Source of the DNA: Rhodococcus sp. 14-2470-1b
Lineage (GTDB): Bacteria > Actinomycetota > Actinomycetes > Mycobacteriales > Mycobacteriaceae
Reading direction: 5' to 3'
Length of the DNA: 64,000 bases
NCBI RefSeq assembly: GCF_002259415.1
Contig: NZ_NPFY01000006.1
Location: 1-64,000, forward strand
Shown here one piece after another: positions 51,074 to 61,947 of the stretch. The notes under the pieces are model-generated. The model searched no databases. It was not told the origin of the DNA and saw only the letters and a list, made by a program, of their open reading frames with translations. The number at the start of each line of letters is the position of its first letter. Positions within the stretch are counted from its first letter, which is position 1. The position numbers and the translations under genes were made by a program.

Positions 51074-51423
51074 ACACCACTCCACTACCTCGGGGTCGCG
51101 GCGAACAAGCCCGCGACCGGGGTGACGCTTCCCCAGTAGACGTCGACCATCGATACTGATTGAAACATTTTCCGGCCAAAGCCTACCGGTTCGATCTCCC
51201 CGCCATCACGACGGACTGTGCCCACAGACCAGTAATTCATCACGATCGGATGGCCCCGCCGAGACCAGTTGCTTGTGATACCTCTCAAAAACAGACTGCA
51301 GTGGGATGATTTCTTCCGTAACCGTGGACGTGACCGAATTGAATCCTGTATCAATACTTCTTGTCGGTGTCAGTGCCGACGACGTTCGCGAACAACACCC
51401 CTTCAGTACAAGGAGCTCACCGC
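51074..51423. other. Intergenic stretch with no confident gene
   Basis: This 350-base region between the effector-binding gene and the 36-codon gene has short frames on both strands, but none has a ribosome site or a recognisable motif. Two overlapping minus-strand frames give protein-like pieces in different registers (SVGTVRRDGGEIEPVGFG and SDRDELLVCGHS), so a decayed gene is possible but not shown. TTGAATCC at about 51339 might be part of a promoter for the downstream gene. Confidence 0.35.
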
Positions 51424-51534
51424 ATGGATCTCGCAGCATTCATCTCCAGCCTTCTCTCCACCGGCAGCACCACGGGAAGCTCCGCATCGGACATCCCGAT
51501 CATCGACCTGCTGGGCGCTGGTTCCTCCAACTGA
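51424..51534 (+). CDS. 36-residue Ser/Gly-rich small protein
   Basis: The 36-codon frame (MDLAAFISSLLSTGST at the start, DIPIIDLLGAGSSN at the end) has the best ribosome site nearby, AAGGAG eight bases before its ATG, and a 16-base-pair terminator hairpin 20 bases after its stop, so it is a single-gene unit. The peptide has two hydrophobic helices (about 2-12 and 24-31) separated by a Ser/Thr/Gly stretch and has no signal peptide. Small unprocessed porins of Corynebacterium (PorA/PorH) have a similar size; similarity to them is a guess. Confidence 0.6.
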   Translation: MDLAAFISSLLSTGSTTGSSASDIPIIDLLGAGSSN

Positions 51535-51553
51535 TCCCAGACGCACCGAACAA

Positions 51554-51589
51554 ATGAGGCTCGGCCCGGATAACCGGGCCGAGCCTCAT
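51554..51589 (+). terminator. Strong intrinsic terminator after the 36-codon gene
   Basis: A perfect 16-base-pair stem (ATGAGGCTCGGCCCGG and its complement) with an ATAA loop is followed by CTTGTTCG. It is one of the strongest hairpins in the window and follows the small gene by 20 bases. The A-run before it (CAAA) allows function on the minus strand too, ending transcription from tRNA-Ala. Confidence 0.88.
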
Positions 51590-51609: not shown

Positions 51610-51671
51610 TGGTGGAGCTGAATTCTTGGTGGAGCTGAATTCTTGGTGGAGCTGGATTCTTGGTGGAGCTG
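51610..51671. repeat. 17-bp tandem array built from the tRNA-Ala 3' end
   Basis: TGGTGGAGCTG occurs four times at 51610, 51627, 51644 and 51661 with an exact period of 17. The last copy is the CCA plus acceptor stem of the tRNA-Ala on the minus strand. The six bases between copies are AATTCT (twice) and GATTCT. The three extra copies lie immediately 3' of the tRNA. Confidence 0.92.
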
Positions 51672-51736
51672 AGGGGAATCGAACCCCTGACCTTCTCGAT
51701 GCGAACGAGACGCGCTACCAACTGCGCCACAGCCCC
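51661..51736 (-). tRNA. tRNA-Ala (anticodon CGC)
   Basis: On the minus strand the 73-base cloverleaf begins GGGGCTGTGGCGCAG and ends CAGCTCCA, followed by an encoded CCA (51661-51663). The acceptor stem GGGGCTG/CAGCTCC contains the G3-U70 pair that identifies alanine tRNA. The anticodon loop TTCGCAT gives anticodon CGC, reading GCG. The T arm has GGTTCGATTCC. Downstream on its strand lie three extra copies of its 3' end. Confidence 0.96.
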
Positions 51737-58290: not shown

Positions 58291-59019
58291 TCAGCCGATG
58301 CTGAAGGGCTGTCCCCACAGCGTCACGGTGGACGTCACTGCGTCGTTGTCGATGGTGACGTTGACGTAGGACCGCGCCTCAGCGAATCCTGCACAGCCCG
58401 AGACACTGAGGGTCTCGTCGGCGTACGTGTAACCGCCGCCGTTGCCGGAGAAGTCGAAGCTGTTGGACGTGTCCGTGGCAACGGTGACGCCGTCGATCTT
58501 GGCGCTTGTCTCGTCAGCGACCAGTTTGATGTCGTTGAGCTGACCGGGAGCCAGGTCCAGGTTGACGCCTGCGCCGATGTCGTACGTGTTCGGCTGCGTG
58601 CGGTTGATCTCGAGTGAACTCAGGGGTTTACCCGGCTCGAGCTTGATCGTGTTGCCCTGGCCGAAGGATCCTTCGACGCCGCCGCTGATGCCGGCCGCGA
58701 AGTCCACCTGGCATCCGACGAGGAAGCCCGGTTCGATGGAACCGCCACCGGGGTTGGAGGTTTCGACGGTGTAGTTGCCGGTGACCCACACGTTGCGCTG
58801 GGTCGGGGTAGCACCCATGGACGGCGATATCAGGCCGCTCTGGCCGAATCCCTTGATGGTCACGACGGTTCCGTCGATGAGCGTCTTCGAGATCTCGTTG
58901 TCCGCGAGCGGCACGAAGGTGTCTGCGTTGGCTGCGCCGGCCGACCAGAAGCCGAGTGCGACGGCTCCTGCTGCGCCCAGGGCCGCGATGCGTGCGGCTG
59001 CGCTCTTGTTGTTCTTCAC
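58291..59019 (-). CDS. MspA-family porin 1
   Basis: MspA-family proteins form octameric pores in the mycolic-acid outer membrane for small hydrophilic solutes. The 242-residue protein begins with a Sec signal (residues about 1-32, ending in ALGFWSAGAANA-D), and its mature part starts TFVPLADNEISKTL. The core has PGGGSIEPGFLVGCQVDF and the end SVSGCAGFAEARSYVNVTI, typical of the family. It is next to a second porin gene on the same strand with a 43-base gap, so the two may be co-transcribed. Confidence 0.92.
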   Translation of the reverse strand: MKNNKSAAARIAALGAAGAVALGFWSAGAANADTFVPLADNEISKTLIDGTVVTIKGFGQSGLISPSMGATPTQRNVWVTGNYTVETSNPGGGSIEPGFLVGCQVDFAAGISGGVEGSFGQGNTIKLEPGKPLSSLEINRTQPNTYDIGAGVNLDLAPGQLNDIKLVADETSAKIDGVTVATDTSNSFDFSGNGGGYTYADETLSVSGCAGFAEARSYVNVTIDNDAVTSTVTLWGQPFSIG

Positions 59020-59062
59020 GTTGGTCTATTCCCCTCGTAAGTTCTGCGAAGTCGTTCGAGCG

Positions 59063-59731
59063 TCAGCCGAGGCTGAACGGCTGGCCGTAGAGCGTGCCCT
59101 TGTATCGGTAATCGCCGGTCAGCTCGAGCGTGGTGTACGAGCGAGCCTGGGCGTACCCACCGCAGTTCTGCACGGAGATCGCGACGTCCTGGTACTGAAT
59201 CGCCGTGACGGGGCCCTTGACGTCCTTCGAGGCGACCTCGACCGCAGCAACTTCGCGATCCTTCAGCGGAACCTCGAACGACAGACCGCCCTCGATCTTG
59301 TTGGTGGTCTCGCCCTCGCCACCGATCTGGAACAGATTGGGGAACAGCGTGATGATGTTGGTGTTGCCGCCTTCGATGCCTGCACCGAGGTCGAAACCGA
59401 GGTTGAGGTCTTCCATGTCCAACTGGCACCCGACGAGATATCCGGTCTTGAGGGTGCCTTCTGCACCCTCGGGGACCTCCGACAGCGCAGTGCCGGTGGC
59501 CCATGCGTTCCGGTTCAGCCCGTTGAAGGCGATCTGCGGAGCAACCTTGGCGGACTCGTCGAAGTGGGCGATCTTGTAGGGCCCTGCCACCTTTTCGCCG
59601 TTAGGGAGGGGCACGAAGGTTTCGGCATTGGCCACCCCGGTGGACATCAGTCCGACGGCCATCGATGCGGCTGCACCGAGCGCCGCGATTCGGCCGATTC
59701 GGCGCAGCGCCGTGAAACGAGACTTGTTCAT
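59063..59731 (-). CDS. MspA-family porin 2
   Basis: The 222-residue protein has a signal peptide (about 1-36, ending GVANA-E), and the mature region begins TFVPLPNGEKV, which aligns with porin 1. LNRNAWATG and TLKTGYLVGCQLDM, with the closing SVQNCGGYAQARSYTTLEL, are family motifs. Two Cys in the mature part are shared with porin 1. The upstream 274 bases to mscL hold a dispersed repeat copy and no other gene. Confidence 0.93.
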   Translation of the reverse strand: MNKSRFTALRRIGRIAALGAAASMAVGLMSTGVANAETFVPLPNGEKVAGPYKIAHFDESAKVAPQIAFNGLNRNAWATGTALSEVPEGAEGTLKTGYLVGCQLDMEDLNLGFDLGAGIEGGNTNIITLFPNLFQIGGEGETTNKIEGGLSFEVPLKDREVAAVEVASKDVKGPVTAIQYQDVAISVQNCGGYAQARSYTTLELTGDYRYKGTLYGQPFSLG

Positions 59732-59760
59732 AATTCCCCTCGTTGAAGCAACACATCGAG

Positions 59761-59783
59761 TCGTTTCGCAGGCTCCACTCCTG
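59761..59783 (-). repeat. Dispersed repeat copy upstream of porin 2
   Basis: On the minus strand the core reads GGAGTGGAGCCTGCGAAACG, preceded by CAGGAG. It lies 30 bases upstream of the porin 2 start codon, so in its promoter or leader region. The long left part of other copies is not recognisable here. Confidence 0.65.
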
Positions 59784-60005
59784 CCGAATCCGACCGCCTC
59801 GACTTACATCACCGAGACTCATTCCTGGGGAAGGATACGGGATGAAATGCCCGTAGTCATTAACAACTTCGAATGATTTTTGTGTGTAACCCTCACATAC
59901 GCGCACTTTCAATCACTTGCGACGTCCGACAGATCCGCATCTCGTTCGACTAACGTCTTGCCCCAGTACACAATGCGCACGTCCGATCGAAAATGAGGAG
60001 GGCTC

Positions 60006-60485
60006 ATGCTCAAGGGATTCAAGGACTTCCTGCTCCGAGGAAACGTCGTGGACCTCGCCGTGGCGGTTGTCGTCGGCGCTGCGTTCACTGCGATCGTCAC
60101 GGCATTCACCACCAACATCGTCAATCCCCTCGTGGCCGCCATCGGCGGTTCCAACGAGTACGGCTGGGGATTCCAAATCACATCCAGCGCCGAGACTTTC
60201 ATCAATGTCGGCGCAGTGGTGACCGCAGTCATCAACTTCATCATCATCGCGGCTGTCGTCTACTTCGTCCTCATCTTGCCTGTGAACACGGCCAAGAAGC
60301 GGTTCGTCAGCCAGCCCGAGAAGGAGCTGAGCGACGTCGACGTTCTCGTCCAGATCCGCGACATCCTCGCCGGCGGCACCGACGTCGGCCGTAAGCTCTC
60401 GACCCCCGCGGACACCACCGGCGGCAGCGGCGAAGCCATCGGCGACACCGACGAGCCAAGCGGTGGGGCACACAGCAAGTCCTGA
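60006..60485 (+). CDS. mscL: Large-conductance mechanosensitive channel MscL
   Basis: MscL opens under membrane tension and releases solutes on osmotic downshock. The 159-residue protein has MLKGFKDFLLRGNVVDLAVAVVVGAAFTAIV as TM1 with the gate region, NVGAVVTAVINFIIIAAVVYFVLIL as TM2, and a C-terminal helix. The extra C-terminal residues (about 115-159) are acidic and Gly-rich. The start is the ATG at 60006. A bidirectional terminator follows, and it is divergent from porin 2. Confidence 0.95.
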   Translation: MLKGFKDFLLRGNVVDLAVAVVVGAAFTAIVTAFTTNIVNPLVAAIGGSNEYGWGFQITSSAETFINVGAVVTAVINFIIIAAVVYFVLILPVNTAKKRFVSQPEKELSDVDVLVQIRDILAGGTDVGRKLSTPADTTGGSGEAIGDTDEPSGGAHSKS

Positions 60486-60589
60486 AAAGCGAGAGGAATA
60501 GCGCCTGCTTCTGCCGACGAATCGGTAGGGACAGGTGCTTTTCTTAAGGCAAACAATCTTTCGGTTCAGAAATCTTTGAACCTAAGACA

Positions 60590-60618
60590 AATGGCCCCGG
60601 CGATTCGCCGGGGCCATT
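60590..60618. terminator. Bidirectional terminator between mscL and the lipoprotein gene
   Basis: AATGGCCCCGGCG pairs with its complement over 13 bases around an ATT loop, followed by TT on the plus strand and preceded by a purine-rich stretch. It sits between convergent genes, 105 bases after mscL and 21 bases from the end of the lipoprotein gene. Confidence 0.85.
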
Positions 60619-60638
60619 TTCACAGAGATAATGGGCGA

Positions 60639-61064
60639 TCAGAACTTCTGGAGCGGGAACTCGGCAAGAGTGATCGTGGTTCCGTCACTCTCGCACGCCG
60701 ATGCGACAGCAGCGGAGTTGTCCACGAACGCTTGACCTGATTCACTGTCTGGCTCGGCCAGTTCCAGCGAGTCAGCGGGGAGTGCCGTCACCAACGACTG
60801 CAGCTGCGTCTGCACGTCGCCGGAGGCACTGTCGCCGAGCGGCCCGAACTTGGCGATTGCGGCATCCTTGTCCGCCGTCCACTTCTCGGCGTCGCCGTCG
60901 ACGGGGCCGGCTGCAGTCAAGTCGGTTAGCTCGTCATGTGCTGCCGCAAATTGGGTGCACGCATCGGCATTCGCTCCGGACGCGGATTCGCCGCTGTCAC
61001 CGCTACATCCGGCAAGGGCGACCAGCGCAGTCAGCGCAACAGCGGAGATCAGAGTGGAACGCAT
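60639..61064 (-). CDS. Small lipoprotein, unknown function
   Basis: The 141-residue protein has a Sec signal with the lipobox LAGC (Cys20 would be lipidated). The mature part is acidic and helical (ADACTQFAAAHDELTDLTAAG, DVQTQLQSLVTALP) with three Cys, two of which could pair. I do not recognise a family. It lies between mscL and a third MspA gene on the same strand as the porins, with a terminator between it and that porin. An envelope role is likely from the lipobox. Confidence 0.82.
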   Translation of the reverse strand: MRSTLISAVALTALVALAGCSGDSGESASGANADACTQFAAAHDELTDLTAAGPVDGDAEKWTADKDAAIAKFGPLGDSASGDVQTQLQSLVTALPADSLELAEPDSESGQAFVDNSAAVASACESDGTTITLAEFPLQKF

Positions 61065-61144
61065 TTGGTATCAGCCATTTCTCGTGCCGTGCAGGTGCAC
61101 CGGCACCTGCCGCACGTCATCGAAGATGGAAGGGAGACAACACA

Positions 61145-61182
61145 GATCGGGCCCGCCCGGATGATTCCGGACGGGCCCGATC
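61145..61182 (-). terminator. Terminator after the third porin gene
   Basis: A 16-base-pair stem with one mismatch (GATCGGGCCCGCCCGG and its partner) and a six-base loop lies about 50 bases after the MspA-family gene at 61234. On the minus strand it is followed by TGTGTTG. It separates the porin from the lipoprotein gene. Confidence 0.8.
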
Positions 61183-61233
61183 GTGATGTCAGTGTGTCAA
61201 CACTGGGATGAAACCGTTGTCAACAGATCGAGA

Positions 61234-61947
61234 TCAGTTGAAAACCCATGGGTTGCCGTAGGTCACAGCAACGTCACCGGTGGAGCTGGTGACCGACACG
61301 TACGGGCGGACGCGGACGTTGCCGAGGATGCCGGTAGCTGTGCCGTGAACATTGGCGATCTGGATCGTGCCGGACGGGCCGGTTCCGTCACCCTCGGTGC
61401 CCTGGACATCACCCGAAGCGCCGGTGGCGTCGACGATGCCGGGTCCGGGAGCGATCTCAGCCGAGAACCCGACCGACGGCAGGAGGTTGTTGGTGGAGTA
61501 GGACGAGTCGCCACCAACCGTGGTCTCAGTGCCGTCCAAAGCGGTGGTGTAATCCGAGCTTCCACCGATGCTGAAGTTCGGGGTCTCGTAGCCGAAGGTG
61601 ATCTTGCCGCCGAGGCTGGCCGGGTAGCCGACCTGGTATCCGACCTTCACGGTGCCCTCGAAGTCGTCGGCGTCGGGTCCGGTAACGGTCCAGCCTGCAA
61701 CACCGTTGGCGAACCACTCACGAGTGAGCGGGTTGCCATCCAGCGGCGGGACGCTGTTGATGAAGGTGTCGGACAGCGTCACGGTGATGAGGTTGCCGTT
61801 GGCATCCACAACCGAGTTGGTGCTGTCGACAGCGGCGGACGCGGTACCCGTACCGAGCACCAGGCCGACAACCGAAGCGCCGGCAACAACTGCAGCGCCC
61901 ATGGACTTCAGTCCACGGCTACGCCGCGGCTTCTGGATCTCCGTCAT
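61234..61947 (-). CDS. MspA-family porin 3 (divergent)
   Basis: The 237-residue protein has a signal peptide (about 1-39, ending TASA-A) and a mature part with LTREWFANGVAGW and GTVKVGYQVGYPASLGGKITFGY, followed by VRPYVSVTSSTGDVAVTYGNPWVFN at the end, which fits the MspA family. It is less like porins 1 and 2 and lacks their two Cys. Several TGTGA-type palindromes lie upstream. Its start is the ATG at 61947. Confidence 0.88.
   Translation of the reverse strand: MTEIQKPRRSRGLKSMGAAVVAGASVVGLVLGTGTASAAVDSTNSVVDANGNLITVTLSDTFINSVPPLDGNPLTREWFANGVAGWTVTGPDADDFEGTVKVGYQVGYPASLGGKITFGYETPNFSIGGSSDYTTALDGTETTVGGDSSYSTNNLLPSVGFSAEIAPGPGIVDATGASGDVQGTEGDGTGPSGTIQIANVHGTATGILGNVRVRPYVSVTSSTGDVAVTYGNPWVFN

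Follow-up and report, generated by a model that had tools for sequence, protein, structure and literature searches.

A conserved 36-codon gene beside tRNA-Ala in Rhodococcus, its genus-limited small-protein family and a possible role at the mycomembrane

Among the small proteins described from the mycomembrane are PorA and PorH of Corynebacterium, which bear mycolic acid at a serine residue. In PorA this residue is Ser15, the modification of which is required for the PorHA channel, and within the part of the source consulted neither protein has a characterised signal sequence (PMC5310785). Sites of O-mycoloylation are serines, less often threonines, located among serine and small residues (Gly, Ala) in flexible stretches, and no strict consensus is given in the sections available (PMC11066868). 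In the literature covered, some of it in excerpt, O-mycoloylation was described for Corynebacterium only. A pore protein of 37 residues, PorACur of C. urealyticum, is made without a precursor according to the accessible part of the source, which also places the PorA and PorH genes between those for GroEL2 and polyphosphate kinase (PMC5944148). Cell-wall channels of Rhodococcus, as far as the excerpt consulted describes them, are of the MspA type and have signal peptides (PMC9233653).

The locus analysed here lies in a stretch of 64,000 nucleotides from Rhodococcus sp. 14-2470-1b, referred to as the window. The following features are relevant:

51320-51357, plus strand: promoter-like region, consisting of the box TT-N8-TA-N3-ATA and an upstream A-n-C
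51410-51415, plus strand: ribosome-binding site AAGGAG, 8 bases before the ATG
51424-51534, plus strand: 36-codon gene, with ATG at 51424 and stop codon TGA at 51532-51534
51554-51589, plus strand: terminator-like hairpin of 16 uninterrupted pairs with a loop of 4
51661-51736, minus strand: tRNA-Ala (CGC), convergent with the 36-codon gene, found in 37 of the 37 genomes of the genus
58300-61797, minus strand: three MspA-family (PF09203) genes, comprising all such matches of the genome, ~7-10 kb away from the 36-codon gene

A preliminary description had reported the frame of 36 codons, the AAGGAG eight bases upstream of its start and the hairpin of 16 base pairs behind its stop, and all three were recovered as described. 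The encoded peptide is MDLAAFISSLLSTGSTTGSSASDIPIIDLLGAGSSN. Nineteen bases separate the stop codon from the stem of the hairpin, which has a weak T-tail (CTTGTTCGTA); in the minus-strand orientation TTGTTC follows, and the hairpin may end the tRNA-Ala transcript as well. The box in the promoter-like region reads TTGAATCCTGTATCAATA (51339-51356) and is followed by C, with the A-n-C located 16-18 bases before it. A site scan of 3 kb found one terminator-like site against a mean of 1.4 in shuffled sequences, and a simple scan of the same 3 kb for a sigma-70-like promoter found none (mean in shuffles 0.9). Since the terminator-like site is no rarer than in shuffles, the sequence and its site count alone decide nothing, and comparison with relatives is more informative. 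The tRNA-Ala gene is a marker of the locus, outside the gene proper, because every genome of the genus has it.

Carriers of the gene make up 12 of the 37 genomes of its own genus (Rhodococcus / Rhodococcoides, a group of soil and plant bacteria) and together hold 15 copies, a single one in the genome of the window. Included is G004, where a run of 10 N interrupts the gene beyond its first codons; these codons, the ribosome site and the promoter region are as in the other carriers. Of 101 genomes covered by a protein search, 10 had the gene, and each of these belongs to this genus. A profile of 12 peptides matched 16 of the 37 genus genomes at E 0.1 or better, 11 of them strongly (E 1e-12 or better); the weak matches in G001, G002, G005 and G016 (E 0.005-0.07) were not counted as carriers because they are partial, lie in long frames or contain stops. 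Among 401 genomes of the bacterial family no match was found beyond the genus at E 0.001. A degenerate DNA pattern, which being exact and of fixed length overlooks divergent copies, gave 12 matches on 9 contigs in genome_contigs (84,980 species per its description), and all 9 contigs belong to Rhodococcus or Rhodococcoides. Carriers known by name include Rhodococcoides kyotonense KB10, with one copy, and JCM 23211, with two. Relatives in other genera were sought with a short profile; its N-terminal matches in ten genomes (E 0.010-0.048) are all partial, none starts from position 1, and they were taken as chance. A phage or plasmid origin was likewise rejected: phages and plasmids gave no tblastn match at E 0.01, viral contigs gave 0 matches to the DNA pattern, and PHROGs gave none for three peptides. 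Pfam, NCBIfam and PDB sequences also held no match for the peptide, and no description of the family was found in the literature searched, a scope that had subscription journals outside it. By these sequence comparisons the gene belongs to a small-protein family (28-39 residues) limited to one genus as far as searched. It is a well-supported small gene unnamed by any family library searched.

Comparison of ten full-length copies showed strong purifying selection at the protein level. The pN/pS ratio is 0.33 over all pairs and the Jukes-Cantor dN/dS is 0.25, while a codon model gave an omega of 0.088, a value that is rough, the sequences being few, short and related, although its direction is clear. 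The log-likelihood was -560.6 with omega free and -617.9 with omega fixed at 1 (~57 log units), the latter figure coming from a related GY model with another treatment of kappa; in a grid of fixed omega values on the tree of the free model, the best value at omega 1 was -619.9 and that at omega 0.1 was -562.4. The test covered 10 of the 15 copies, with the four short paralogues described below and the G004 copy left out; the latter was also excluded from the peptide statistics and included for the promoter box. The sole internal length difference amounts to three codons and is in frame, and the ends vary by one or two codons. Copies in relatives have comparable purine-rich ribosome sites. A chance frame is rejected because start, stop, frame, ribosome site and hairpin recur in relatives and omega is 0.088; purifying selection rules it out. 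The preliminary description had let the gene stand or fall with conservation of frame, start and hairpin in close relatives, which was found, and the codon-substitution analysis it had proposed resulted in the omega given above. Its view of a stand-alone small gene with its own terminator-like hairpin is thus supported, and frame 51424-51534 is almost certainly a real protein-coding gene.

The same comparison bears on the possibility that the locus specifies a regulatory RNA with a secondary frame, or that the hairpin serves the tRNA only. The hairpin is strong and convergent with tRNA-Ala, and genomes G025 and G014, which have no family frame, keep a similar one; on the other hand, omega is 0.09 over the frame and the hairpin is kept in copies far from the tRNA, which makes this reading very unlikely. 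A stem of 13-24 bp follows all 14 readable copies, starting 9-21 bases past the stop codon (one mismatch and G-T pairs being tolerated in the search). A hairpin of the tRNA alone was ruled out, and the hairpin is assigned to the gene, because copies away from the tRNA also carry it. The similar hairpins of G025 and G014 (loci L091 and L092) are located ~60 bases from tRNA-Ala; they may be left over from a lost copy or may terminate the tRNA transcript itself.

Upstream of the gene, the box TT-N8-TA-N3-ATA is found gap-free in all 15 copies, the distance from its TA to the ATG being 61-85 bases. Shuffled upstream sequences contain the pattern in 0.27% of cases; because the copies are related, its conservation is partly descent. 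Before the box, C at -16 is present in 15 of 15 copies and A at -18 in 13 of 15. The box pattern TTNNNNNCNGTAWCAATAC is matched exactly at a single site of the genome and hence gives no sign of a regulon. A wider regulon was considered at up to one mismatch and rejected, with 2 genome sites against 1 for the reversed control.

Two kinds of copies can be distinguished. Eleven are full-length (35-39 residues in the 10 readable ones) and four are short (28-32 residues); both kinds are present in G003, G021 and G026, whereas G030 has the short kind only. Seven residues, M1, D2, T13, G14, S15, G18 and S19, are identical in every aligned row (12-row and 13-row alignments), and positions 3, 6, 7, 10 and 11 read as hydrophobic in all rows. 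The short paralogues share the core MD...TGSxxGS and have no second hydrophobic segment. Over the first 20 or so residues the paralogues are alike, and their tails are unlike.

This pattern might be expected of a peptide exported for signalling or antagonism, or of the precursor of one, in which a conserved N-terminal leader precedes a variable, C-terminal active piece and the gene has been duplicated. Indeed, the second copies lie near the first ones (across the tRNA in G003, and in G021 and G026) and the distribution is patchy. However, judged from shared gene clusters, no constant maturation, export or immunity gene adjoins the gene, its neighbours vary between genomes, its location is a different one in two carriers, and the full-length copies retain a recognisable tail, IP..-LL. 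Moreover, the peptide differs from most leaderless bacteriocins in being acidic and, across the 10 full-length copies that can be read, free of Lys and Arg. An exported peptide of this type is therefore considered unlikely.

The net charge is -2 or -3 in 14 of 14 copies, and -3 in the peptide of the window, which has no Lys or Arg. Of 14 copies, 12 reached p < 0.05 in a hydrophobic-moment test on residues 2-12 (p = 0.043 for the window's peptide); the copies are related and so not independent, and two miss the threshold. AlphaFold2 predicted helices at 3-13 and 25-31 (11 and 7 residues) with low confidence (pLDDT 64.1, pTM 0.30), separated by a Ser/Thr/Gly hinge at ~12-20. Two short hydrophobic segments flanking a Ser/Thr/Gly linker had been noted in the preliminary description, as had the lack of a signal peptide; the segments are supported, and on reading the sequence no signal peptide is recognisable. 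A type I toxin, or another membrane-lytic peptide silenced by antisense RNA, would also be short, partly hydrophobic and accompanied by a strong hairpin. Type I toxins have a single membrane-spanning helix, whereas none of the 14 copies has a membrane-spanning stretch (best 19-residue Kyte-Doolittle mean 0.5-1.0). The peptide is acidic, and tRNA is the only Rfam family that reaches its gathering score here, so that a toxin is the least probable of the readings considered.

An amphipathic N-terminal segment without a recognisable signal peptide, acidic and under strong selection, would also suit a cytoplasmic membrane-binding regulator. SpoVM-type small regulators are the model for such a peptide: the N-terminal amphipathic helix would dock onto the plasma membrane from the inside, or onto a protein partner, and the tail would tune the partner. 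This explanation leaves the invariant Ser/Gly hinge unaccounted for, and the patchy presence and tail-variant paralogues are somewhat easier to reconcile with an accessory role at the surface or after export; a regulator is somewhat unlikely.

The invariant hinge directs attention to the small proteins of the mycomembrane. PorA and PorH resemble the window's peptide (36 residues) in being very short and without a signal peptide, and their genes are often in tandem. PorA furthermore has its modified serine in a Ser/Gly context, at position 15, and Ser15 is invariant here, perhaps by coincidence. The Ser/Thr/Gly hinge is richer in the window's peptide, the host has MspA-family porins, and the gene is not located between GroEL2 and polyphosphate kinase genes, as the PorA and PorH genes are in the part of the source consulted (PMC5944148). 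PorACur is similar in size, in having no precursor and in its predicted helix, again within the text available (PMC5944148), but belongs to another genus and another gene neighbourhood; the likeness is one of description. MspA-family porins (PF09203) share the window and the presumed membrane with the small gene, yet are six times longer, and the Rhodococcus examples in the excerpt consulted have signal peptides (PMC9233653); a resemblance in sequence would not be expected.

The preliminary description had considered a role related to PorA and PorH possible. Four representative peptides gave no match at E<=10 to the PorA model NF033925 or to the PorH models NF033937 and NF033938, in searches where HMMER filters may lose weak matches. 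As controls, C. glutamicum PorA scored 83.5 bits with NF033925 (cut-off 50), and PorH of this species reached 39.5 bits with NF033938, where the cut-off is 30, but did not attain that of NF033937. None of the 37 genus genomes has a match to NF033925 above cut-off, and the window's own genome has none at E<=1 to this model or to NF033938. Matches below the NF033925 cut-off (E 0.19-0.94) occur in 18 of the 37 genomes, and the small gene is at none of the 22 places listed. In 14 control genomes the model found matches in 6, C. glutamicum among them, and 1 exceeded the cut-off. Membership of the PorA or PorH families thus finds no support, while the peptide, being signal-less, acidic and amphipathic with a candidate Ser/Gly acceptor, may still work in a PorA-like way.

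By analogy, the most likely role, though somewhat short of an even chance, is that of a signal-less amphipathic peptide in or on the mycomembrane, with the Ser/Gly hinge as a possible mycoloylation site. The peptide would leave the cytoplasm without a signal peptide and settle in or on this membrane. Residues 3-13 would fold into an amphipathic helix, its greasy face made up of positions 3, 6, 7, 10 and 11. The invariant TGSxxGS motif would provide a flexible hinge, one serine of which could be mycoloylated like Ser15 in PorA; the motif fits a candidate site of this kind. In the full-length kind the second short hydrophobic segment might add a further contact. The paralogues, in which anchor and hinge are constant and the tail differs, suggest that the tail would set the binding or action of each. 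Against an envelope role count the lack of PorA/PorH kinship by model, the presence of MspA porins, the short helices and the low confidence of the structure model, as well as the short paralogues without a second segment and the description of O-mycoloylation in Corynebacterium only. An envelope-bound accessory peptide is favoured over a general porin, since the three MspA-family genes, and Rhodococcus channels of that type, leave no need for a further porin; its role would be accessory because 25 of the 37 genomes have no detected copy. The more specific proposal, a new leaderless Rhodococcoides family of mycomembrane miniproteins, mycolate-anchored at the Ser/Gly hinge and diversified in the tail, is as a whole rather unlikely. 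If true, it would represent a PorA-like solution without detectable PorA kinship, outside Corynebacterium and in cells with MspA-type porins. The gene offers a compact case for two questions: by which route small proteins lacking a signal peptide arrive at the mycomembrane, and whether mycoloylation extends beyond Corynebacterium.

In the window the neighbours of the gene are a Cass2-like gene and tRNA-Ala, and the interval between these two is variable within the genus. A copy lies within ~150 bases of tRNA-Ala(CGC) in 8 of the 12 carrier genomes; G032 and G026 have it in the same interval, 1.8 or 3.4 kb from the tRNA, and G013 and G033 have it elsewhere, beside other genes. In G003 the two copies flank tRNA-Ala, one on each side (L075, positions 4826 and 5261). 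A MoeA tree of 35 of the 37 genomes (G018 and G034 missing; 10 of 25 inner branches well supported) showed carriers to be clustered, with 5 changes against 9.3 in shuffles, and its well-supported branches require a minimum of 3 gains or losses. This fits an old accessory gene that was lost several times, or some transfer.

Two minor observations concern the tRNA itself. Upstream of tRNA-Ala in G034 (L070), the translated flank resembles by eye the final part of a serine recombinase, a likeness that would point to integration at this tRNA. In the window, 51610-51660 contains 3 copies of TGGTGGAGCTGRATTCT with a spacing of 17 bases, which run directly into the 3' end of tRNA-Ala and duplicate its final 11-12 bases, CCA included. 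These repeats could be traces of an attachment site or the result of slippage; G004 has 2 similar copies.
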